A program made the position numbers and the translations under genes. Positions 2,963-15,517 of a stretch of DNA of 20,140 nucleotides are shown here, in pieces. Source of the stretch: a virus; the IMG/VR virus record IMGVR_UViG_3300025168_000905, positions 1-20,140 of that record; one strand, 5' to 3'. A model generated the notes under the pieces. The model was not told where the DNA came from. It made no database searches and worked only from the letters and a program-made list of their open reading frames with translations. The first letter of the stretch is position 1. Every line of letters begins with the position of its first letter.

Positions 2963-3835
2963 TTATGCGCTAGTTGAGTGATTACCCATTTCATAAGTCA
3001 AACTTGCACCTTTAGAATCGTCAAGTTCAAACATTCCGTAATCCTCTGTCATTACCATTTCAGTAGCTCTAAGAGAAGCATCTCTTTGTCTTTCAACATT
3101 TCTTCCTGCTGAAGTAATGTATCCCATAGCTCCTGATGTAGCAATTACACCAACAGCTGCGTTATCTCCAACAGATTGTACAATGTTTCCATCTTCAAAG
3201 AAAGGCACTCCAGCAATTCTTACTCCTGTAAAGAAGTCTTTAACTGGTGGCTTGTTGAATACATCTGGCAACGGATATGTTGCTAATGGTGTTTGTAGGC
3301 TTTGTGTTAGTTTAAAGATTGCGTTAGGGTGGTGAACAATAAATGGATTCAATCCAAACTTATCTCCCTTTGCCCTTGCAATTACTGAAGTAGCGTTAGC
3401 TAAGCTAAAAGCTGCTCCATCAGCACCTAAAGATGTACTGAAACCTGCAAAAAGAGCTATAGCATCAGTATCTTTCTTTCTTGCCATAGCATCTCCTGCC
3501 TGTCTACCAACAACTCCCATTACGTCTTGATTGAATTGTCTTGATAGTTTGTCAGTTATTATGAATTTAAGTCCAACTTCAGATGTAGTAGCAGAAACAA
3601 TAGAAGCATTAATATCTTCTGAATCTGTCAAATCAACACCATCAGTTAAGTCAGCTGCTGTTACTTGTCCAGATTTAGGAATATCAAGCTGTTTCTCGCC
3701 TTTACCTAAAGTAAACTTTTCAATTAAACCAACAACTGGCATGTTGTGTTCTTCTGTGTATCTCATCTGTGCAATAATAGTATTCTGTATAGAACCTAAA
3801 TTCCCAGATGCAATACCTTGCGTGTTAGTTGCCAT
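2963..3835 (-). CDS. Major capsid protein (HK97-fold type)
   Basis: This 290-aa protein forms the head shell. The length and layout fit HK97-fold capsid proteins. An N-terminal arm (about 1-45) is followed by an E-loop/P-domain-like region (LIEKFTLGKGEKQLDIPKSG, then an acidic DLTDGVDLTDSEDIN stretch). An A-domain-like part carries NPFIVHHPNAIFKLTQ (about 163-178) and GVRIAGVPFFEDGNIV. The C-terminal part is SAGRNVERQRDASLRATEMV, then TEDYGMFELDD. There is no fused protease. It directly follows the scaffold gene, separated by 32 nt carrying a Shine-Dalgarno (AAAGGAAAA), which is the standard capsid-module order. The capsid role is well supported by context plus pattern; no structural search was possible. 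Confidence 0.85.
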   Translation of the reverse strand: MATNTQGIASGNLGSIQNTIIAQMRYTEEHNMPVVGLIEKFTLGKGEKQLDIPKSGQVTAADLTDGVDLTDSEDINASIVSATTSEVGLKFIITDKLSRQFNQDVMGVVGRQAGDAMARKKDTDAIALFAGFSTSLGADGAAFSLANATSVIARAKGDKFGLNPFIVHHPNAIFKLTQSLQTPLATYPLPDVFNKPPVKDFFTGVRIAGVPFFEDGNIVQSVGDNAAVGVIATSGAMGYITSAGRNVERQRDASLRATEMVMTEDYGMFELDDSKGASLTYEMGNHSTSA

Positions 3836-3867: not shown

Positions 3868-4734
3868 TTAAGCGTGCCAATTAGGATTAGTATTCCTCAT
3901 GGCCCTTTCATACATTTCCATAGTAATCTTAGGATCACCACTTGCAAATCTGTCAATTACATCATCATCATTGCTTGGTATGTTGTCAGGTGGCACGTCA
4001 CCAGAGGTGTTAAGTTGTGGAGTAGTTTCTTTAACAACTCTATTTTTTTGCGATATTGCAGAAGCATATTTTTCCATTTGGTCAGGCGTAGTAAATCCTT
4101 CAAGTTCAGTAGCAGAAACATTATACTTGTTAGCTATTTGATTAGTAACAGTTAATTTAGCTTGACGATCTAGTTCAGCTCTTTGTTGCTCTATTGACTG
4201 CCTTTCTTGATCCAATTTTAATTGGCCCATTGCAGTTTGAGCAGCAGCTTCACCTTCTTGCCTAGCTTGGGTTCTTGCTTGTTGGTCATCTACGCCTTGT
4301 TGCACTAACCATTGAGTTTTGTCCATAACGAATTTCTCTTTGGCTGACACTATCTGTTGTTCAGAGTATTGTTGCGTTGTTTGCGTAGTTGTTTCTTTAA
4401 GTTGATTTACTTGTTCCTGCAACTGGCTAATAACTTTGTCATTATCTGCTGCACGTTTATCGTAAGAACTTTGAATTTTCGATACTTCTTGATTTGTATA
4501 AGTACGATTATCTTCTTGTTGTTTAGAATTGTTGTCTGTAACCTCTGTAGGTTCTGCTCCCTGATTGCTTTGCTCAGACTCCCCTGAATCAACAGTTTCC
4601 TTTGCTCCTTCTGACAATCCCTGTTCCACTTCAACTGCAACCTGTTCCTCTGGTGTTTTGTCAATAAGAAGATTAGAATCCTGTTGTTGAGGCTCCTGTG
4701 CGACAGCATCTGAAGAAGTTCTTTCAGTTGTCAT
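3868..4734 (-). CDS. Scaffolding protein
   Basis: This 288-aa, very polar, Gln/Glu-rich protein lies just upstream of the major capsid gene. The first 75 residues are acidic and likely disordered (ending near TEVTDNNSKQQEDNR). Residues about 80-195 form a long probable coiled coil (VISQLQEQVNQLKE, then LKLDQERQSIEQQRAELDR). The C-terminus ends DDVIDRFASGDPKITMEMYE, then RNTNPNWHA, a short helix that may bind capsid subunits. Coiled coil, charge, lack of any enzyme motif and gene position all fit internal scaffolds of short-tailed and other dsDNA phages. A strong Shine-Dalgarno (CAGGAGAAAG) precedes the ATG. No serine-protease motif is evident, so it is a plain scaffold rather than a protease-scaffold fusion. 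Confidence 0.85.
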   Translation of the reverse strand: MTTERTSSDAVAQEPQQQDSNLLIDKTPEEQVAVEVEQGLSEGAKETVDSGESEQSNQGAEPTEVTDNNSKQQEDNRTYTNQEVSKIQSSYDKRAADNDKVISQLQEQVNQLKETTTQTTQQYSEQQIVSAKEKFVMDKTQWLVQQGVDDQQARTQARQEGEAAAQTAMGQLKLDQERQSIEQQRAELDRQAKLTVTNQIANKYNVSATELEGFTTPDQMEKYASAISQKNRVVKETTPQLNTSGDVPPDNIPSNDDDVIDRFASGDPKITMEMYERAMRNTNPNWHA

Positions 4735-4812: not shown

Positions 4813-7800
4813 TTATTCAACTGGATTCATTTCTGGTAATTCTGCAAAACTTCCACCAGTAAGTTGTGGTGATTGGAAAGTAGGCATTAGTTGTTCTATA
4901 AATTTGCCAGGTTTTTTTAATAAAGGTCCAGGATCTACTCTTAAATTAAATGTCCTGGAATCCCAGAAAAAACTAGCATTTGGATCTAAAGCTGTACCTG
5001 GACTACCTGCTTTTTCAAATCTTTCTCTGGCTTGTTCTGACTTTTGTCTACTAGCATACCAATACTTTAAAGGGTAAACTCCACTCCTTCCTGCCTGCAA
5101 CATTCTTTGCAAAACTTGTGGTTCGTAATACAAATCGTTAATATTTCTAGTTACATATTCTCTTTGTTCTTTTGACCAATTACCAACTATGCTCCCATCT
5201 TTTAGTTTTATTTGTTCTCCACGAAATAAAGCATCTTGTATGTTGTATTTTTCTTGGTCTGCTTTTTTAAGTTTTTTGTCATAATATAATTCACCTAAGT
5301 CGTACCATTCTTCAAGAGCAATAACATTTTCAGAAGTTTCTTCAAACGAATTTTCATCAGAAAATGGGTTTCCTTCATTTAAAGTAGCTCCATATTTTGC
5401 TGTATAATAAAAATCGTCTGCATCTTTAACATCTTGTGCAAACATTTTTATTGTATAAGTTTTTTTATCTTCTCCGTACCCTCTTTTTAAATAAAGTAAA
5501 TATTGACTGTGTTGATAGAGTCTTTCTTCTTGCAATATTTGTAAATCTGTTTGTGCTGGCTCTGACGAAATTCCTATTAATTTTCCAGCTGCCCTTGCAA
5601 GACCTTCTCTTTCTTTTCCTTTATAAGTTTGCTCTACAATATATTTAAAATCTCTTTTTTGATGTGGTTCTAATCTTAAATAATCAAATCCTCTGTTTTT
5701 TGCTTCTTGTATTAAAATGTCAGTATATGAATTATCAGATGACATTATGCCACCAAATTCTAACAATGCTTGTGCAGAATTTATTCCATAATCTTTTACT
5801 AATACTCCTAAATCTAATGCTTTTTTTTCTGACTTCCAATATTGTTTTGTAGCATTTACATTATCTGTTAATTCCTCTCCTAGATTTGCTAATGAAAAAG
5901 GTGCAAAGGCATCTACAGAGTACAAAAGCATATCTGCTAATTGTTGGCTTGCAGAATCTGTTTTATTTCTTATTGGTGTTCCGTTCCATTCTTCATTTGT
6001 TAGTAGATCCATACTTGTTTTAAATATTCCTGAACCAACGCTACTTAATGTATCTTCTCCAGTTTTTAAAGCTTTTCCAAGACTTTTTGTTTGTATTGCA
6101 TTAACAGTTCCTGATATAAAATTAAATACATGACCAGGCACATTAATTACTGCGCCCATTGGTGTATAATCTTTACCCCAAGGGGTTCTTATTGTCATAA
6201 AATTTCCATTTTTTCTTAACTTACCTGTTTGTGTATCTTTTACTATTGGACTGTAATCAGTTTCTCTGCCTTGCATTGCATTAATAGCAGTAACTAAAGT
6301 AGCTGTGTATAAAAAGAATTTTTGCATCCTTTTAGCTAGTATTCGAGCTTCTAAATCATTTGATAATCCTTTGCTAACGCCAAGCACACTACCAGTTGCA
6401 GTACCTTTTACTGCTTTTTGAAAAAACCTTAATCTTGTTAAATAATATCTTTGAGCAAATAAAAAAATACTTCCAACATCTACAACCCTTCTATACCGAC
6501 TACTGGTAGTAGTTGTTCCACTTAAAGTATTAGCTATACGAGCTATATCATTTATTCTTCCACTTTCAATTAAGCTTTTCATAGTATGCCCTCTAGCTAA
6601 CTCATCAGCTAATAAATCATCTGCTTCTGCTAACCTGTATGTATTTCCAAAAGTTGTAAAAGCGTCATCAAATGGTAATTTATCCATAAATGCTTTTACT
6701 CGACCTTTTGTTTCTGTTACATCTAATCCTCCACTTTGCAATCTAACTACGTCAGTATTTTGAACAAGTCCAACATTTATCCATTGATTAGATGTAAACC
6801 TTCCTGTTTTGGCTGCTTGTGCATTAAATTCTATGTATGCTTGCCCCATCGCATCTTTATTATTAGCTAACGCTTTAAGGTTGGCCTTTACTGCTACTGC
6901 CCAAGTTTTTGGATTTGTAACTAATCCTACTAACCCTTGTATTGCAATTCCAGAATTATCTACTGTAGATTTAAATCTTAGATACACAGCATTATATGCT
7001 CTTATTAAAGCAAGTCCTGTCTTTGAATCTCTTGGCTCTATATCTTTAATAAACTGATTAAAACTTTTTGCTGCAGATTTATCTAAATACATATCATTTA
7101 ATTCTGCATAATTTAAATCTTCTAATTTTTCATATCCTTCTATCTCAGGAGATACTGTTTTTTTTGCATTATCATATTCTTTTGTTGCTGTTATAAGTTT
7201 TTTTTCAACTATTTTAAGTTCATTTTCTATTTCTTTTCTAGTCATTCCAGAACTTTTTCCAGCTTTAATTACATATTGTTTTTTCTGTATAATTTCTAAT
7301 ATTTTATGTGCATCTTTTGGTTTTTCATTTAAAAGTCCATCAACAAGTTCTTGTGTTCTCACTTCTAAAACATTTTTTAAACTGGTAAGACGTGTAAATT
7401 CTTTAACAGCTTCTTTTTTTCTTTTAATTATTTCTGGAAATTGTTCTCCAAAAATATCGTCAAATGTTTTAAAACTTATATCTCCCTCAACATCTCTTAT
7501 ATTCTTAGCTGCTTTTTCTATAGCATTTATTACATTTTGCATCATTATTTGCCTAATATTTGTAGATAATGATTCTGCTAAACTTTGATATTGGTATCCG
7601 TTATCTATTGCTTCGCCCATAGAATCAAATATTGCTGATTTATTCCATGCTTTTGCTTTATTAAAATTTTTAGGAATTATAAATTGTTCTACATTTCCAT
7701 CTTCAAATGCACCACCTCTAGGCATCCAAAATCCATTATCTTTATTTATATCTTTTCTAACTGTTGTAAGGTTTTCGGCATATTTATATTTTTTATATAT

Positions 7801-10758
7801 TTCAGGAATTTCTTTCCATAATTGACTTACAGGTATCATAGTTTCATTTATAGAATCAAGAGTTGTTAGTTGTTGTTGTGTTAAATTAAACCTGCTTGGA
7901 TCTGCTGCTATATCATTTATTGTTGGTCTAAATTCTTTAATTATTGGTTTGCCGTTTTTTAATACAACTTGCCCTTTTATATCTGTTACTTGTTTCTCTA
8001 TAAATCCTACCCCATTTATTAAACCTGTTTTTTTATCTACGTTAAAATTACCATTAACTCTTGCTGTTATTTCTGCTGTCATTGCAGCTGTTTTTGATTC
8101 AATATTACTTCTTGCCTGATCGTAAAATTTTCTAATTCCATCTATAATATTTTTTTCTTTATGCAGAAGGTCTAGTTTTTCTGGATTTAAACCTGGTATT
8201 CTATTTAATATTTTATAAACCCTGTTTATGCCTAATTGATATGACGACAAATGTAATTCAATTGTAAAATTACCTATAAGATTGCGAAATGCTTGTGTTG
8301 GAACAAGTCTTGTTACATCGTTACTATCAAGAATGTCTTTTTCTTTTATAATAATTTCTTTTTGTGTTGTTTCTACAATAGGTTTTTCGTCATGCCTTTT
8401 TCTTGCTGTTGCAGTCATTGGTATATCAAGTTCTTGACCAGTATTTATTAAAGGACTATCAATATTATTCCTGGATGTACTGCTGTTTTTAGGGTTTAGG
8501 TCAGATTCTAGTTTATTATTTGTAGTAGCTAAATCTTCATTAGATGTGTAATTACCTTCTTCTCTGACTTTTTTTTCTAATTCTTTTTGATCTTTTTTTG
8601 AAACAGGATCATCAATATCTTTATCAAAATCTTTATCATCTATTGTTTTCTTTTGATATTCAATTTCTTTATCTAGAGGGTTAAGTAACCTTCCAGTAGC
8701 TCCAGTATTAATTTCTGTTCCCTCTGGTGCAGCTTTTTTTATAGCTTGTTCTAATATTTGCAATTTGGTTAATGGTTCAAACATATTTTGTTGACCAATA
8801 TTTTCTTCTACAAGTTCTTCATATTTACTAAATACGCTAGATATTTGTTTTGATGAATTAGAACCTTTACCATGTCCATTAAACAGATTAAGTAGTTGAA
8901 GCTCTACAGGATCTGATGCAAATTCATTAAACATTTGTGTTTGATTTAGATAAACATCTATTGCTGTTTTAACACTTTGATTATTTTTTCCTGCTTGTTC
9001 TTTTAAACTCCTAAACCTTTTTATAGCTCCAATAATTTCTGTTGAAATATCATAATCCGTTTGAGATGTAAATTTGTTTATTTTTCCTTTTATTACTGCA
9101 AGTTGTGGCAAAGATTCATCTATAGCATTAAATAATGATTTAGTTTGTTGATCTGGTAATTCATCAATATTTTTTATTAAGAAATCTGCATTGTCTTGTC
9201 CAAATATTCTTACTCTTAATCCTTGTACTAATTTAGTTACACCTTCTTCTGTTAATTTTCCATTTTTAAACCAATTTTTAGAATTAGGATTACCTTTCAC
9301 ATAGGACTTAAAGGAATTTATTACTTCTGAATTTCTAGTTGCTTTAAGTGTTTCCTGGATTGTTTTACCTGTAGGAATTATTCTGTTTAATAAATCTGGG
9401 TTCCATCCTTCTGCAAGTTGGCCTGCTTCTTCAACAGCACTAAATGCTTCGACTTGTGAAGTGTTTGCATCAATAACGTATGGAGTCAAAGCATCATCTG
9501 GTAATTTTGTTTGTCTTTCTCTAACTATTACAGGTATATTTTCATCTAAATCAAATCTATCTAAATCAGTTTTAGCTATTCCAAATTCTTCTAACCTTTC
9601 TCTCAGCCTTTGAACATAATCATTGTATACATCTGGAAAATCTTTTTTAGCAAGTTTTATTGCCATCATTCTTTTATTTCCACTTTCAACATGCTTATCG
9701 CCTATTATTGGCATACCTGTATCAAGCCTAGAAGTATTGTCAATTAAATCATCAGCTCTTAAAGTTTTTGCTAAAGTTATTAATTCAATTTGTTCTTCTC
9801 TTGTTGTTAGTCTTTCTCTAGGTTGTTTTATTTCTGGGTATCTGCCGTCTTTTGCAAAATTTGGACTATACGGATCATTAGAAGTTATTATTTCATTAGC
9901 ATCCATTAATTTAATTTTAAAATCTAATCTTTGAAACTCTCCATTACCAGAAAATCTAGGATCAGGAGAATTTCCAGTAGTAGATGCGCTTGCATTTCTA
10001 CCATAAAATTCAAGAGGTTCAGGATCAAGTGATGCTCCACCTATAAGTGGTCCTTCGTTAACAGGTATTATCCTGGTTGGCCTAGCTGCGTTTACTGCTG
10101 CTGGATTGTTTAAATAATCACTTAATTTTGGTGGGTTCGCCCTAATTCCTTTAGTTGTATTAATAATACTTCTGCCAACTAAATTAGTTGCAAGAGGTGC
10201 AAGTAATCCAAACGCTGGCCCTCCAAGTTGTGTTGCTAGTTGAATAGATTGGTCAAAAGCCATTTCTGCTGCAAATCTTCTACCTGGATTATCACTTTTT
10301 GAAATTGGAGCTGTTATTGCTTCTAAGGCTCCAAAAACTTTTTTTCCTTTACTGTTTGTTATTTTTGCACCTGCGTACTTAAAAGGAGCTTGAACTGCTT
10401 TAGATGCAAAACCAACACCAAAGCCAACATCAAGAGGAGTAAGACCTAGTGCAACATTTTGCACGCCTTCCCCTAAAGTTTTATCACCAAATGGTAATTG
10501 TGCATTAAAAATTCCTGATGTAAATAAAGGATCAGTTTCTTCTCGAAATCTTTTTGCAAATTCATCTTCGTAAAACGGCTTAGTTAATCTTTTTTCTTGA
10601 ATAGGTGCTACTGGATCTTGTAAAGTTTGCAATACGTTTTTAGCTGTTCTCGCTAGATATTCGCCAAATATAGGTCCATAATCTGTAACTGGTTGTAGTA
10701 TATTTCTTGATTTTTTAAGTTCTTCTAATGAAAAGCTTGGACTTGGACCCATTACCAT
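4813..10758 (-). CDS. Giant polyvalent-type virion protein with DdrB/ParB-like domain, 1981 aa
   Basis: The largest gene in the window. Residues 1-250 contain Gly/Ala-rich helices (VGFGVGFASK, LGGPAFGLLAPLATNLVG). Residues about 275-560 resemble the DdrB-like ParB-superfamily domain of phage/plasmid polyvalent proteins. GDKHVESGNKRMMAIKLA (353-370) fits its G-x-H/R-x-x-x-G-N-x-R signature; NIPVIVRERQTKLPDDAL, YVIDANTSQVEAFSAVEEA and a GKLTEEGVTKLVQGL helix follow. Residues 690-815 are a charged, low-complexity linker. Residues 820-1250 are helical with NGFWMPRGG (1008-1016). Residues 1360-1640 recall large polyvalent-protein-associated C-terminal domains, with SSRYRRVVDVGSIFLFAQRY and TPWGKDYTPMGAVINVPG. 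The last 340 residues are helical and unassigned. A Shine-Dalgarno (AGGAGTTCATT) precedes the ATG. Its position between portal and scaffold suggests a packaged, perhaps injected, protein. The ParB-like call is by motif; the C-terminal assignment is weaker. It lacks T7/N4 RNA polymerase motifs. Confidence 0.75.
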   Translation of the reverse strand: MVMGPSPSFSLEELKKSRNILQPVTDYGPIFGEYLARTAKNVLQTLQDPVAPIQEKRLTKPFYEDEFAKRFREETDPLFTSGIFNAQLPFGDKTLGEGVQNVALGLTPLDVGFGVGFASKAVQAPFKYAGAKITNSKGKKVFGALEAITAPISKSDNPGRRFAAEMAFDQSIQLATQLGGPAFGLLAPLATNLVGRSIINTTKGIRANPPKLSDYLNNPAAVNAARPTRIIPVNEGPLIGGASLDPEPLEFYGRNASASTTGNSPDPRFSGNGEFQRLDFKIKLMDANEIITSNDPYSPNFAKDGRYPEIKQPRERLTTREEQIELITLAKTLRADDLIDNTSRLDTGMPIIGDKHVESGNKRMMAIKLAKKDFPDVYNDYVQRLRERLEEFGIAKTDLDRFDLDENIPVIVRERQTKLPDDALTPYVIDANTSQVEAFSAVEEAGQLAEGWNPDLLNRIIPTGKTIQETLKATRNSEVINSFKSYVKGNPNSKNWFKNGKLTEEGVTKLVQGLRVRIFGQDNADFLIKNIDELPDQQTKSLFNAIDESLPQLAVIKGKINKFTSQTDYDISTEIIGAIKRFRSLKEQAGKNNQSVKTAIDVYLNQTQMFNEFASDPVELQLLNLFNGHGKGSNSSKQISSVFSKYEELVEENIGQQNMFEPLTKLQILEQAIKKAAPEGTEINTGATGRLLNPLDKEIEYQKKTIDDKDFDKDIDDPVSKKDQKELEKKVREEGNYTSNEDLATTNNKLESDLNPKNSSTSRNNIDSPLINTGQELDIPMTATARKRHDEKPIVETTQKEIIIKEKDILDSNDVTRLVPTQAFRNLIGNFTIELHLSSYQLGINRVYKILNRIPGLNPEKLDLLHKEKNIIDGIRKFYDQARSNIESKTAAMTAEITARVNGNFNVDKKTGLINGVGFIEKQVTDIKGQVVLKNGKPIIKEFRPTINDIAADPSRFNLTQQQLTTLDSINETMIPVSQLWKEIPEIYKKYKYAENLTTVRKDINKDNGFWMPRGGAFEDGNVEQFIIPKNFNKAKAWNKSAIFDSMGEAIDNGYQYQSLAESLSTNIRQIMMQNVINAIEKAAKNIRDVEGDISFKTFDDIFGEQFPEIIKRKKEAVKEFTRLTSLKNVLEVRTQELVDGLLNEKPKDAHKILEIIQKKQYVIKAGKSSGMTRKEIENELKIVEKKLITATKEYDNAKKTVSPEIEGYEKLEDLNYAELNDMYLDKSAAKSFNQFIKDIEPRDSKTGLALIRAYNAVYLRFKSTVDNSGIAIQGLVGLVTNPKTWAVAVKANLKALANNKDAMGQAYIEFNAQAAKTGRFTSNQWINVGLVQNTDVVRLQSGGLDVTETKGRVKAFMDKLPFDDAFTTFGNTYRLAEADDLLADELARGHTMKSLIESGRINDIARIANTLSGTTTTSSRYRRVVDVGSIFLFAQRYYLTRLRFFQKAVKGTATGSVLGVSKGLSNDLEARILAKRMQKFFLYTATLVTAINAMQGRETDYSPIVKDTQTGKLRKNGNFMTIRTPWGKDYTPMGAVINVPGHVFNFISGTVNAIQTKSLGKALKTGEDTLSSVGSGIFKTSMDLLTNEEWNGTPIRNKTDSASQQLADMLLYSVDAFAPFSLANLGEELTDNVNATKQYWKSEKKALDLGVLVKDYGINSAQALLEFGGIMSSDNSYTDILIQEAKNRGFDYLRLEPHQKRDFKYIVEQTYKGKEREGLARAAGKLIGISSEPAQTDLQILQEERLYQHSQYLLYLKRGYGEDKKTYTIKMFAQDVKDADDFYYTAKYGATLNEGNPFSDENSFEETSENVIALEEWYDLGELYYDKKLKKADQEKYNIQDALFRGEQIKLKDGSIVGNWSKEQREYVTRNINDLYYEPQVLQRMLQAGRSGVYPLKYWYASRQKSEQARERFEKAGSPGTALDPNASFFWDSRTFNLRVDPGPLLKKPGKFIEQLMPTFQSPQLTGGSFAELPEMNPVE

Positions 10759-10767
10759 AATGAACTC

Positions 10768-11127
10768 CTAAAATCCGTATAAAAATCTTGTTGGAGGAGC
10801 TAATGACCTAGTGTAGGGCGATCCTGCTTGTTGTTGAATTCGTTGTGATACAGGAAATTGATCTAAAAATTCTGTGAATGTAGTTGTTGGTGTTTCTCCA
10901 CGTCTTGCTGCTCCAGCTATTTCACCTAGAAATTCGTTTTGAGCTTGTTGAAATACATTAGATATTGTTTCTCTTTTTCTTTTTTCTGTAGCAAAAGGTT
11001 GCGCCATAGACTGAAAAATACCAAATTGGCCTTGCGTTGATCCTTCTAAATAATCTAAAAATGGATTTTGAAATCTTGGTTCTAAAAATTGATTAGGGTA
11101 ACTTTCGTTAAAGTTAGGCATTGTCAT
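10768..11127 (-). CDS. Small virion-type protein, likely short paralogue of the 354-aa neighbour
   Basis: This 119-aa protein has no recognised family. It is Q/F/P/R-rich, without a membrane segment or signal peptide, and ends in an aromatic tail (LAPPTRFLYGF). Three short motifs occur in the same order as in the C-terminal half of the 354-aa protein next door: NPFLDYLEGST (21-31) against DPYRQYLEQSS, SNVFQQ (56-61) against ANIFDQ, and a GxxxxGE-x-x-P-T-F-like block around IAGAARRGETPTTTFTEFL (70-88). It sits 9 nt upstream of the giant gene and 3 nt downstream of the 354-aa gene. A role as internal or portal-associated virion protein is inferred from position. Confidence 0.75.
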   Translation of the reverse strand: MTMPNFNESYPNQFLEPRFQNPFLDYLEGSTQGQFGIFQSMAQPFATEKRKRETISNVFQQAQNEFLGEIAGAARRGETPTTTFTEFLDQFPVSQRIQQQAGSPYTRSLAPPTRFLYGF

Positions 11128-11130
11128 AAT

Positions 11131-12195
11131 TTACCCTCCTAATCCGTATGCACCTTGTAACGCCTGAGCAAAAGTTGGAGCTGTATCTTCCCCTGCTTGT
11201 GATCTACCATAATAATCTTGATATAAATTTTGAACAGATGGTAATTGGTTACTAATCAAATTAAATGCTGCACTACCAATTCTATTCTTTAACGCTTGTT
11301 CAGCTAATGATCCAAAACCACTTAATAATTGTGCATTTTGTGCTTGTCCTACACCATAAGGTGTGTTTCTAGGTCCAGTTCCAAGAACATCTGTAAATAA
11401 AGATGCAGCAGAACCTGGAGCAAATGTATTGTTACTTATTCCACTTACAATTTGATCGAATATATTTGCTGCACTCTGCCTTGCTTGTAATGGATTACGC
11501 ACAGTTGCTAAGTAATCTTCGTAACCAGGAGCAGATTCTGTTATATCATCAGCAAATCCTGCACCACGCAATACGTTTCCAAATCTAAAAGGATTAAAAA
11601 AAGTTGGAAATGATGACTGTTCTAAATATTGTCTATAAGGATCTGTTACTTTTCTTGCCGTAAGGCCCATCTGTCTTTGAAAAGCTGCTTGTGGATCTAA
11701 TTCTCCTAAGTTTAATTCTGGAATTGGGTTTATTTCTGGCATAATAGAAGAAGTTCCAGTCATTCGATTAGAGCCAGGCTGATTTACCAAAGGAACACCT
11801 CCCAAACCAGATCCACTATTCATAGCCGCTGCTGCTGCTGCTGCTGCTGCTTCTCGTTCCGCTGCTTCTCTTGCTTCTTGTTCCGCTGCTCTTAACGCTG
11901 CCGCTTCTCCTGCTAAATCAACAAATTTTTTATTGTCATCATCATCACTTAGTGTAGGCCTGATGCCAAAACTTCTTTCTGGTCCTGATTCATATATCAT
12001 GTTTCCACTATCATCTAGTGTGCCAGTAGCCGTTCTTGTAGTTATAGGCTGATTTGAACCTGCTTCAGTTACGTTTGCAACTGAGCTTCCTGATTCTTGT
12101 GCATCTTCATTAGCTATTCTTGCTGCTTGTGCAGCTGAGGTTGCCCTTATTGTATAACTTTGTCCATTTGTTAAAGTAACTGTATATTCTTGCAT
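11131..12195 (-). CDS. Portal-adjacent virion protein, 354 aa, with poly-Ala coiled coil
   Basis: The family is not named with confidence. Residues 1-33 form a small beta-alpha unit (YTVTLTNGQSYTIRATSAAQ, then AARIANE) common in short phage proteins. Residues about 92-125 are an Ala/Glu-rich helix ending in a poly-Ala run encoded by eight GCT triplets. Residues 130-180 are Pro/Gly-rich and probably flexible. Residues 185-354 carry the motifs shared with the 119-aa neighbour (DPYRQYLEQSS at 185-195, ANIFDQ at 243-248, YYGRSQAGEDTAPTFAQAL at 328-346). A GAGG Shine-Dalgarno lies in the end of the portal gene, and the spacing to the portal stop is 4 nt. It is likely a portal/ejection-associated structural protein, inferred from neighbours. 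Confidence 0.75.
   Translation of the reverse strand: MQEYTVTLTNGQSYTIRATSAAQAARIANEDAQESGSSVANVTEAGSNQPITTRTATGTLDDSGNMIYESGPERSFGIRPTLSDDDDNKKFVDLAGEAAALRAAEQEAREAAEREAAAAAAAAAMNSGSGLGGVPLVNQPGSNRMTGTSSIMPEINPIPELNLGELDPQAAFQRQMGLTARKVTDPYRQYLEQSSFPTFFNPFRFGNVLRGAGFADDITESAPGYEDYLATVRNPLQARQSAANIFDQIVSGISNNTFAPGSAASLFTDVLGTGPRNTPYGVGQAQNAQLLSGFGSLAEQALKNRIGSAAFNLISNQLPSVQNLYQDYYGRSQAGEDTAPTFAQALQGAYGLGG
11828..11851. repeat. (GCT)8 triplet repeat
   Basis: Eight uninterrupted GCT units on the plus strand read as AGC on the minus strand and sit in the 354-aa gene, in a frame that gives part of its poly-alanine run (residues about 116-124). In an AT-rich genome this GC-rich microsatellite stands out and may vary in copy number through slippage. 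Confidence 0.85.
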
Positions 12196-12199
12196 TTAA

Positions 12200-14095
12200 T
12201 TATCCTCTAGCTCCTGGTCTAGGTTGTCCAGGCGCTCTAGTGTTGTTAGGTGGCGTTGTTCCTCTAAATAAATCATACCCACTTTCTGGTCCTGTTACAA
12301 CTCCATTGTTATTTTGCATGCTTGGTCTAGGATTTTGTGGTGGTTGACCTGGTGGTTGACCTGGTGGTTGACCTTGTTGTGGTTCTGCTCCTTGTGGTGG
12401 CACACCTTGCTGCATCATCTGTAATTGTGATTGCAACTGTATTATTGCCTGTTGAAACTGTAGTTTCTGTATGTATTCTTCTCTTTGTTCTTGTGTATAT
12501 TGACGTTTCATTTGATCTAAAAAGAATTGCGCTTCTACTGGTCTTTGATTTTCTAATAAACCTTCCCACATATTGTAGGCCATAGCTTTAGGTTCTGACC
12601 TAGCGCCTTGCTGTGCAAAAATTTCTTTCTTCCACTTGTCAGGATCTTCAACATCCAACACTTCATTCCAAATATAACTATCTGGTGCTAATGGAACTGG
12701 CCCTTCTCTTAACATTTGAGCTGTAGAGAATCTCTGTGGATCCTCCATTCCAAGAGAATTTTTGAACATAACTTCTAAGTTTCCTGCTTTTTTTAATTCT
12801 TCTGGTTCTATTTCTTCTTCAAAATATGTTTGTGTTTCGCCCATAACACCATCAAAACTTAATTTGCCAAACCTACCACCTTGATATTGTGATCTTAAAA
12901 TATTTGCTATTTGACTATAAGCGTTACTTAAAGCTTTCATTCTGTGTGCTACTTGATGTTGCGCACCAGACCTAAGTATGTTTGCTGCATGTCCAGATAA
13001 TTGAAATTGAATATCTCCAAAAACAATATCAGGTACAGTACCTTGTTGTAATTCGCTGTTAACACTACCAATAAAGGCTCCTGCATCAGCTACAAGTTTC
13101 ATTTCTGGTGCTAATTCTATATTTTCACCATCTTTTAATGATATATTTGCGCCTTCTCTATAAGGATCATCCATAAGTCTAAGGTTTCCATCCCTACTTC
13201 TTAGTATCATAGGATGTTTAACGGCACGTCTTACAAGTGTTTGCCAGTCTGACATAGATTTATTTTGATTATCAATTAATCCTCTTATGTGTCCAAACAC
13301 GCTTTCACCAACATCACCCCATACGTTATCTCCAGAGTAATCACCTTGCACGAATGGTTGTGGTCCTACATAACCTATAAATGCAGGTACTATTGGCTCT
13401 CCATTTAAGTTTTTGTTTTCATGTTTTTCTGGTTTTATTAAAAATCTTCCATTAGCCACAACACTTCTTGTGTATCTATCAATATATTCGTGTACATCTA
13501 CTCCAGTTTCGTAATCACCTGCTGAAAAATCCATATTAATTCCATAGGTATCTTTAATAAAATCAGGGGTTCTAGAATGTGATTTGGCTATCCATTTCAA
13601 ACCATTAGAATCAAACTTCCAGGTTGCGTTCATAGGATCAAATGGTTCTATCTCACACTTAATTGATCCGTTTTCCTGCTTGTTAAACATAGCTCTGCCA
13701 CAATACCAACCTCTTACGGCAATATACCAGGATAATTGATCTTGCAGCATTGGGGATAACATGGAGGTTAGTCGGTCATCCCCCATACGAATACAACCAC
13801 GAATGAATTTTTCGAGAGAAGTTCCAGATTCTGCGCTTTCTGGATCATTGCGATCATACCTTGTTCGTACAGTCATTGCTGCTTCCGTTAAATAACTTAT
13901 AATTTTATCAGCTGTTGTACGAGGTTTATTGCTTGTGTACGATTGATAACCTTCCCCAGCATCGTATTCTTCTAGGGAATAATAAGAATAATCTTGTTCC
14001 CATCTATCTCTAAGTTTCAAGTATTGAGGTTTTTCTTTTTCCTCATTTACTATCGAGTCTATTTGTTTAGCAGTTAATCTTTTTTCAGTTGTCAT
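12200..14095 (-). CDS. Portal protein
   Basis: This 631-aa protein forms the dodecameric ring at the head vertex through which DNA is packaged and leaves. It directly follows TerL (3-nt gap), and its length suits portals of short-tailed phages. Visible hallmarks are an N-terminal helical part with conserved Trp/Tyr (WEQDYSYYSLEEYDAG), a clip/stem-like region with YCGRAMFNKQENGSIKCEIE and PFDPMNATWKFD, and a conserved core FGHIRGLIDNQNKSMSDWQ, then DIQFQLSGHAANILRSGAQH. From about residue 530 the C-terminus is helical and Gln-rich (IIQLQSQLQMMQQ), then Pro/Gln/Gly-rich with three GQPP units (575-586). The Shine-Dalgarno is weak (TTGGTAAAAT), so translation is probably coupled to TerL. The portal call rests on context, length and overall pattern. 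Confidence 0.85.
   Translation of the reverse strand: MTTEKRLTAKQIDSIVNEEKEKPQYLKLRDRWEQDYSYYSLEEYDAGEGYQSYTSNKPRTTADKIISYLTEAAMTVRTRYDRNDPESAESGTSLEKFIRGCIRMGDDRLTSMLSPMLQDQLSWYIAVRGWYCGRAMFNKQENGSIKCEIEPFDPMNATWKFDSNGLKWIAKSHSRTPDFIKDTYGINMDFSAGDYETGVDVHEYIDRYTRSVVANGRFLIKPEKHENKNLNGEPIVPAFIGYVGPQPFVQGDYSGDNVWGDVGESVFGHIRGLIDNQNKSMSDWQTLVRRAVKHPMILRSRDGNLRLMDDPYREGANISLKDGENIELAPEMKLVADAGAFIGSVNSELQQGTVPDIVFGDIQFQLSGHAANILRSGAQHQVAHRMKALSNAYSQIANILRSQYQGGRFGKLSFDGVMGETQTYFEEEIEPEELKKAGNLEVMFKNSLGMEDPQRFSTAQMLREGPVPLAPDSYIWNEVLDVEDPDKWKKEIFAQQGARSEPKAMAYNMWEGLLENQRPVEAQFFLDQMKRQYTQEQREEYIQKLQFQQAIIQLQSQLQMMQQGVPPQGAEPQQGQPPGQPPGQPPQNPRPSMQNNNGVVTGPESGYDLFRGTTPPNNTRAPGQPRPGARG
12338..12373. 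repeat. Three 12-bp tandem repeats in portal C-terminus
   Basis: The unit TGGTGGTTGACC occurs three times exactly, head to tail. On the minus strand it encodes (GQPP)3 within the disordered Pro/Gln-rich portal tail. The unit length keeps the frame, so copy number can change without breaking the protein. Confidence 0.9.
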
Positions 14096-14098
14096 ATT

Positions 14099-15517
14099 TT
14101 ACCAATAAGATATTGATGGTTCTCTTGGACTATAAGAACTTGGTTCTTTCGCATGTCCGAACTCATGTATAAGTCCATAAGTTATAGCCTTTACTGCATG
14201 ATTGTACCTATCTCTTGGCGTTGTGCCAAGTACGTTACCTTCTCTGTCTGTCGCCCAAGAGTAAACTTTAGTCTGGCCATTGAAGGGATTAGGGCCTCCA
14301 CCTAGTTCGCTAATTACCCCTTTACAGTCAGGGGAAAAAACAATTTTGGGTTCTTTCATTATGGGATCTATCTTTAAAAAAGTATTAAATCTTTCAACAC
14401 CTTCAATAATTCTTACATAAGTTGGATGCAAATATAATCCTGTTTCTTGTTGCCAAACTTCAATTTGAGAGGGCATAGCTTGATGCTGCGCACCTGCCTG
14501 ATCTATAGCTCCGTACTTTTCTGCCTTATTCCACCATGACCTTGTCATAGCTATCTGACATATTTCAGAACCTATTTTCTCTTGTTCGTATATTTCATCA
14601 AAAACTCTTATCTGGCCGTCTATAATCTGCGCACATTCTACGGAATATGCAGATTCTGTAGCTCTTGAATAGCCTGGATCTACCCAAATATACACAGGAA
14701 GTCCTTCTACAAAGTCTACATCTTGAATATGCACTTCATTTCTAAACATTTCATGCACTCTACCTTTTGGAGGACTAGGTACACCTGCAAATCTTTCCAT
14801 AAACCATGACTCACTATGCGTGTTTTCTAGTTTTAATATCTCTGGATCCTCCCTGCCACCAGGAAAAAGTTCCGTATTAGTCCACGTTGGGAGGGAGAAG
14901 CTCTTTACGTTCTCGGTTTTCTGGACAGCAGGAGAGGACCAATGAATATATTTCTCTGGATACCATCCTAAACTACTCTCAAACGTACCTTCTAACATAA
15001 GCCATCCACGTTTCTCTACTAATCTCTCCTCTAAACGCCAGAAACTTTCTAAATCTAATTGAGAAGCCTCGCATCCTATTATTCCAGCAGGAGCTTCCAT
15101 AGCTAAACTCTTAAAATCACTCGCCGACTTAGTTTTTATAGCAATCTTTTCATGGCTGCATCTTGATTCTCCACATACGCATACGTTTAATCTTAATATT
15201 CCTGGATTAATAGGCTTACTCATGTCGCCTAATAGGCCTAGATTACCTAAATCTGTACCAATATAATTAAATTCTGCCCTCGTTCTTTCATAATCAGCAG
15301 CTACTAACCAGTATATATCTCCAGGATTAGCAGTTTTATTAGCAATACTTTCTAAAATTTTTAAAGTCATATAAGCACCAGCTAATCTGCTCTTACCTCC
15401 TCGTACACCTCCTGCTATCAATTTATAACGTGAAGCATCATTTAATATGTCTAACTGTGCTGTAGAAGGCTTTAAACTCATCTGAGCTAATAATTTATCT
15501 CTAGTATGGGTATCCAT
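14099..15517 (-). CDS. terL: Terminase large subunit (ATPase-nuclease)
   Basis: This 472-aa DNA-packaging motor docks on the portal, hydrolyses ATP to pump DNA and cuts concatemers. The N-terminal ATPase shows a Walker A-type motif GGVRGGKSR (36-44) and a Walker B-like segment ending GIIGCEAS with Glu150. The C-terminal RNase-H-like nuclease shows YIWVDPGYS (Asp280), YGAIDQAGAQHQ (Asp339) and DRYNHAVKAITYGL (about 436-449), which fit the three acidic/His metal sites. A Cys/His cluster CVCGESRCSH (113-122) inside the ATPase domain is unusual. The first ATG is used as start, although no Shine-Dalgarno precedes it. A TACAAT -10-like element ends 7 nt upstream, so the message could be leaderless. 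The next in-frame Met (residue 13) has no better site. Confidence 0.95.
   Translation of the reverse strand: MDTHTRDKLLAQMSLKPSTAQLDILNDASRYKLIAGGVRGGKSRLAGAYMTLKILESIANKTANPGDIYWLVAADYERTRAEFNYIGTDLGNLGLLGDMSKPINPGILRLNVCVCGESRCSHEKIAIKTKSASDFKSLAMEAPAGIIGCEASQLDLESFWRLEERLVEKRGWLMLEGTFESSLGWYPEKYIHWSSPAVQKTENVKSFSLPTWTNTELFPGGREDPEILKLENTHSESWFMERFAGVPSPPKGRVHEMFRNEVHIQDVDFVEGLPVYIWVDPGYSRATESAYSVECAQIIDGQIRVFDEIYEQEKIGSEICQIAMTRSWWNKAEKYGAIDQAGAQHQAMPSQIEVWQQETGLYLHPTYVRIIEGVERFNTFLKIDPIMKEPKIVFSPDCKGVISELGGGPNPFNGQTKVYSWATDREGNVLGTTPRDRYNHAVKAITYGLIHEFGHAKEPSSYSPREPSISYW

Follow-up and report, generated by a model that had tools for sequence, protein, structure and literature searches.

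A ParB-fold module related to P1 DdrB in a giant protein encoded among the head genes of an uncultured marine phage

What could a protein of 1981 residues be doing among the head genes of a marine phage? The window studied here is the whole of a 20,140-base virus contig, IMGVR_UViG_3300025168_000905, whose source is described as an uncultured marine phage. It encodes such a protein at 4813..10758 on the minus strand, and the gene is real, as had been claimed: it is a single open frame with an ATG start, and another IMG/VR contig (L001) encodes the identical protein. The original prediction was that this is a polyvalent-type protein with a DdrB-like ParB domain, probably packaged and possibly entering the cell with the DNA. 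In the profile scans one domain, DdrB-ParB, was recognised, where a polyvalent protein would show two or more functional domains in one chain. Along the minus strand, the N-terminal region (residues 1-261; 9976..10758) occurs, among the fetched loci, only in the window lineage, and is followed by the DdrB module, a ParB-fold domain with a helical extension (residues 262-690; 8689..9975), which was delimited by conservation, a structural model and alignment to P1 DdrB. A mostly polar linker of low conservation, judged by identity to relatives (residues 691-840; 8239..8688), and a C-terminal core traced by iterative profile search through its part 1252-1625 (residues 942-1936; 4951..7935) make up most of the remainder. 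None of the 19-residue stretches of the protein has a hydropathy above 1.22, so there is no clear transmembrane helix, and a zincin was ruled out in the window protein since it has no HExxH motif.

Fold and constraint of the DdrB module

The Pfam family ddrB-ParB (PF18763) matches residues 276-415 with an E-value of 2.9e-14 and 53.7 bits, above the curated cut-off of 27.6 bits; the match was also recovered by a six-frame search of the whole record, and there were 0 matches in 14 control genomes. The signature said to lie at residues 353-370 is there as quoted (GDKHVESGNKRMMAIKLA), with QPRER at residue 312 and PVIVRE at 409. From 60 sequences AlphaFold gave a confident model of residues 255-700 (mean pLDDT 86.5), whose best matches among solved structures were ParB/Noc domains: in the structural comparison places 1-7 were all ParB/Noc N-terminal domains, lying within residues 258-437 (Z 7.6 to 5.7, rmsd 2.4-3.6, 92-102 residues), while the places below them went to unrelated helical matches in other parts of the model. 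A Z below 8 is not decisive alone; seven members of the superfamily over one stretch, with the Pfam hit beside them, put the ParB fold nearly beyond doubt. The best match of a Foldseek search of the model against the PDB reached only E 0.8, and a PDB sequence search with the family profile returned chance matches to ribosomal proteins and no ParB.

The ParB-fold core itself (residues 276-436; 9451..9933, minus strand) was drawn from the Pfam match, the 7bnr, 6sdk and 7bm8 matches (Z 7.6-7.1) and column counts, and contains Q312-P-R314-E-R316, G348, G360-N361-K362-R363 and N432. As expected for the fold of PF18763, the ParB/Noc structural matches are accompanied by a conserved pocket arginine and a conserved D/N residue, the latter being the 'strand 2' residue of PMC5512222, which was matched to the window by inspection. 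In BFVD, DdrB-like phage proteins were matched over about 440 columns of the module (best E 2.2e-15), so the helical part belongs to it, and P1 DdrB aligns to window residues 284-657 with 25% identity over 393 aa. The DdrB-like ParB domain proposed for residues 275-560 therefore stands, but not its extent: the conserved module covers about 262-690.

The module is also where the window protein is most strongly constrained. Identity to the relative L007 is 74-85% within residues 262-690, as against 47-69% outside and still less at the extreme C-terminus, and L008 and L010 give the same pattern at lower values; the linker is 34-47% identical to relatives, compared with 38-85% for the module. Taken over the module, amino-acid identity to L007 is 80%, as against 50-59% elsewhere, while identity at four-fold sites is not raised there, so the module is under stronger purifying selection. 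A recent horizontal arrival of the module as the source of its high identity was rejected on the same four-fold-site result.

Pocket residues and the comparison with chromosomal ParB

Across 60 diverse sequences, Q312, R314, R316, G348, G360, N361, R363 and E443 never vary wherever they are present (G360, N361 and R363 in 60/60), and N432 is kept in 58/60. The window departs from its family at two positions, K362, found in the window and two relatives where 57/60 sequences have G, and L448, found in four of the 60 including the window where 54 have D. A search of the loci for a canonical ParB to compare by sequence gave none. The correspondences with Caulobacter ParB were drawn from a hand alignment, in which several invariant pocket residues line up with nucleotide contacts of that protein (PMC8367383): Q312, R314, R363 and N432 correspond to Q58, R60, R104 and N136, all of which have been studied by mutation (PMC8367383).

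For the CTPase clamp we compared the Caulobacter set Q58, R60, G79, E102, R103, R104, E135, N136 and R139. By the same hand alignment, Q312, R314, G348, R363 and N432 are kept, whereas E102, E135 and R139 become N361, A431 and Q435, and R103 becomes K362. Since E102 and E135 are required for CTP hydrolysis in Caulobacter ParB (PMC8367383) and seem to be replaced here, a CTPase clamp is not predicted. The residue pattern thus leads us to predict that the DdrB module binds nucleotide, and to make no such prediction for hydrolysis or DNase activity. The likeness to the N-terminal CTP-binding domain of chromosomal ParB/Noc lies in the fold and in the QPR, GxxR and N positions, but GERR and ENxQR of ParB/Noc are GNKR and DANTSQ in the window, and no counterpart of the DNA-binding and dimer domains of chromosomal ParB was recognised in the window protein.

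A fixed site, a shared core and variable N-terminal stretches

All the neighbouring genes considered here lie on the minus strand. The large terminase (472 aa, 14099..15517; PHROG terminase, E 5.6e-11) is followed by a putative portal of 631 aa (12200..14095), placed by its position after the terminase, a 354-aa gene from the ORF list with no function assigned (11131..12195), and a 119-aa gene that adjoins the giant gene (10768..11127), the likes of which (102-119 aa) stand beside it in most of the relatives whose giant gene is complete. Beyond the giant gene come a putative scaffold of 288 aa (3868..4734), at the position where HTVC111P and HTVC112P have an annotated scaffold, and the major capsid protein of 290 aa (2963..3835; Pfam Phage_capsid_4, E 5.4e-9). 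Neither the putative portal nor the putative scaffold has a Pfam or PHROG hit, and both labels come from a gene order matching that of annotated pelagiphages. The giant gene does lie between the putative portal and the putative scaffold, but the 354-aa and 119-aa genes separate it from the former.

A capsid-protein search gave 80 related loci, and in all 48 that could be scored, those reaching 3.5 kb or more upstream, an ORF of at least 800 aa (often cut by the contig end) stands directly before the putative scaffold; the 26 uncut ones are 1413-3034 aa long. Uncultured marine phages thus keep a long ORF at a constant position within the head module, which is new. The earlier view that such a protein is uncommon finds no support here: relatives are encoded by at least 301 stretches of viral contigs, and their ORFs range over 474-4655 aa, with many above 2000 aa. 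In cultured pelagiphages whose capsid protein is about 30% identical, the giant gene is absent from that site. One pelagiphage without the giant gene, HTVC112P, has adjacent genes annotated as ParB-like nuclease, DnaJ/SNF2-like and FkbM methyltransferase (L101:6973-9195). In L007 the giant gene is split into overlapping ORFs of 1072 aa and 891 aa (L007:3151-6369 and L007:6357-9032), the split falling between the N-terminal part and most of the core, and this may be a frameshift, an assembly error or a true split.

The part of the C-terminal core at residues 1252-1625 is the most widely common to the giant proteins of related phages (43 ORFs by iterative profile search), and the giants of L013, L014 and L029 gave no match to it. 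The core had no significant family match, and whole-protein searches with sister giants, two in the PDB and four in PHROGs, gave none either. Its model is of poor confidence (pLDDT 58.6), and the PDB structural matches of this model were short helical stretches that we did not use. Membership of LPD38 found no support in Pfam, hmmsearch or hhalign with shuffled controls: there was no Pfam hit, and the hhalign probability was at most 3.5% (best P 0.004, partly colinear). Separately, a 504-aa protein of HTVC010P (L104:8821-10335) matches the LPD38 region of phage phiARM81mr with 28% identity.

Most sister giants keep the C-terminal core and carry DdrB-ParB, ART, ParB_N-like, GNAT-like or HExxH stretches near the N-terminus. 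The clearest case is a direct observation: L024 and L036 share 93% identity across some 1300 C-terminal residues and 84% across their first 310, and residues 311-490 of L024, an ART-like segment of ~180 residues, are missing from L036. The matches behind the ART, ParB_N-like and GNAT-like names are sub-threshold and serve as leads: ART-PolyVal on the L024 cassette (31.1 bits, cut-off 31.2), an ART match in L033 below the cut-off, a ParB_N-like stretch with EGAHRVAA in L047 (L047:4602-5426; 20.6 bits, cut-off 26.3) and a GNAT-like match close to the beginning of what is available of the L067 giant (L067:3-1100; FR47, E 2.9e-4, below the cut-off). The L047 stretch would be a second, different ParB-superfamily type in a sister giant. 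L051 has the motif HEIEH, and HExxH is also found in several other giants. We saw no swap of the DdrB module itself, which all completely sequenced relatives in the window lineage have.

That the same gene in related phages carries different effector-type domains bears out the polyvalent-type setting first proposed, and a shared core with varying N-terminal domains points to a protein for delivery whose cargo can be exchanged. It can be hypothesized, a little short of an even chance in our judgement, that this widespread, uncultured group of marine phages has an undescribed conserved C-terminal carrier and an interchangeable N-terminal effector slot, holding DdrB-ParB, ART, ParB_N-like, GNAT-like or zincin-like domains, by which different early proteins would be sent along one route.

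Proposed function and known systems

The reading we favour, to which we would give an even chance, is that of a packaged and ejected polyvalent protein. It would be made late, together with the head proteins, packaged in the virion and delivered to the cell along with the DNA. The conserved C-terminal core would act as the packaging and ejection carrier and the DdrB module as its cargo, the ParB-fold module probably binding nucleotide and contacting DNA, and acting early in infection on the incoming genome or on host DNA. Packaging and ejection are plausible by analogy with P1, where mass spectrometry of the virion detected 39 unique peptides of DdrB, listed as a head protein (PMC9024508), and from the long ORF standing before the putative scaffold and capsid genes in all 48 scoreable loci. 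Structures of DarA and Hdf locate internal proteins of P1 at the capsid (PMC12810830). Protecting or organising the incoming DNA, as first suggested, may be one among several roles.

The P1 work also provides the grounds for a rather unlikely alternative, in which the module is an assembly factor that loads partner internal proteins into the capsid and has no role in the infected cell. The table of PMC9024508 has DdrB as a protein that 'aids DarB addition to capsid' rather than as an intracellular effector, and the direct homology of the module to P1 DdrB and the place of the giant gene between head genes would both fit. However, the eight window proteins scanned, in a record that is a fragment, gave no Pfam or PHROG hit to the Dar family, whose companion genes in P1 are darA, darB, ddrA, hdf and ulx, and so no partner resembling DarA or DarB was recognised among them; the window module is joined in one chain to a large C-terminal core of its own; and the other cargo found in sister genes (ART, GNAT-like) is of an enzymatic kind. 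An NTP-regulated DNase directed against host or rival DNA, the function that Iyer et al. 2017, who defined the DdrB-ParB domain, predicted together with NTP sensing (PMC5512222), would agree with the invariant family arginine R363, but we consider it improbable. The same paper leans towards NTP sensing, on the grounds that other DNases do not take the place of the domain, and the near-invariant family aspartate is the leucine at 448 in the window. It is more improbable again that the protein is an inner-core or ejection protein like T7 gp16 or the N4 virion RNA polymerase, with a ParB module that merely anchors it to the packaged DNA. In L010 and in L009 alike, none of the nine ORFs listed after the capsid gene exceeds 800 aa, which leaves no second large protein there as a candidate for ejection or tape measure, and the BFVD matches of the core include several polyvalent-type phage proteins, which would also suit such a role; the low confidence of the core model counts against it.

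Outside the model phages, few proteins are known to be delivered together with the phage DNA. Should the distinction of carrier and cargo in the favoured reading be true, the cargo swaps between near-identical marine phages are a natural experiment on which early effectors are of advantage in the ocean, and a conserved carrier is available for the testing of delivery. A phrase search met the term 'ddrB-like ParB' in no further one of the papers covered, and among the open papers covered we found no report on the biochemistry of the P1 DdrB module.

Among known systems, P1 DdrB of the Dar anti-restriction system is alike in its ParB-fold domain with a helical extension, and the P1 protein is virion-associated. 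It has 995 aa and is encoded among the darA, ddrA and hdf genes, whereas the window gene stands among head genes; its C-terminal part has an HELGH motif and a peptidase domain according to Iyer et al., whereas the window protein has a different C-terminal core of ~1000 aa. Phage phiARM81mr (ALN97650) and the LPD38-type proteins of Vibrio and Bacillus are also giant phage proteins, the former with ddrB-ParB; phiARM81mr has LPD38 and the Vibrio and Bacillus proteins match its C-terminal region, but the window protein does not reach LPD38. With the polyvalent proteins of PMC5512222 the window protein shares a large size and DdrB-ParB, and its sisters the ART, ParB_N-like, GNAT-like and HExxH stretches; its core matches none of the described LPD domains significantly, and in the marine lineage the gene keeps a single place among the head genes. 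The window protein belongs to a known kind and comes from a new, marine lineage, to which the DdrB module of P1 is now extended.
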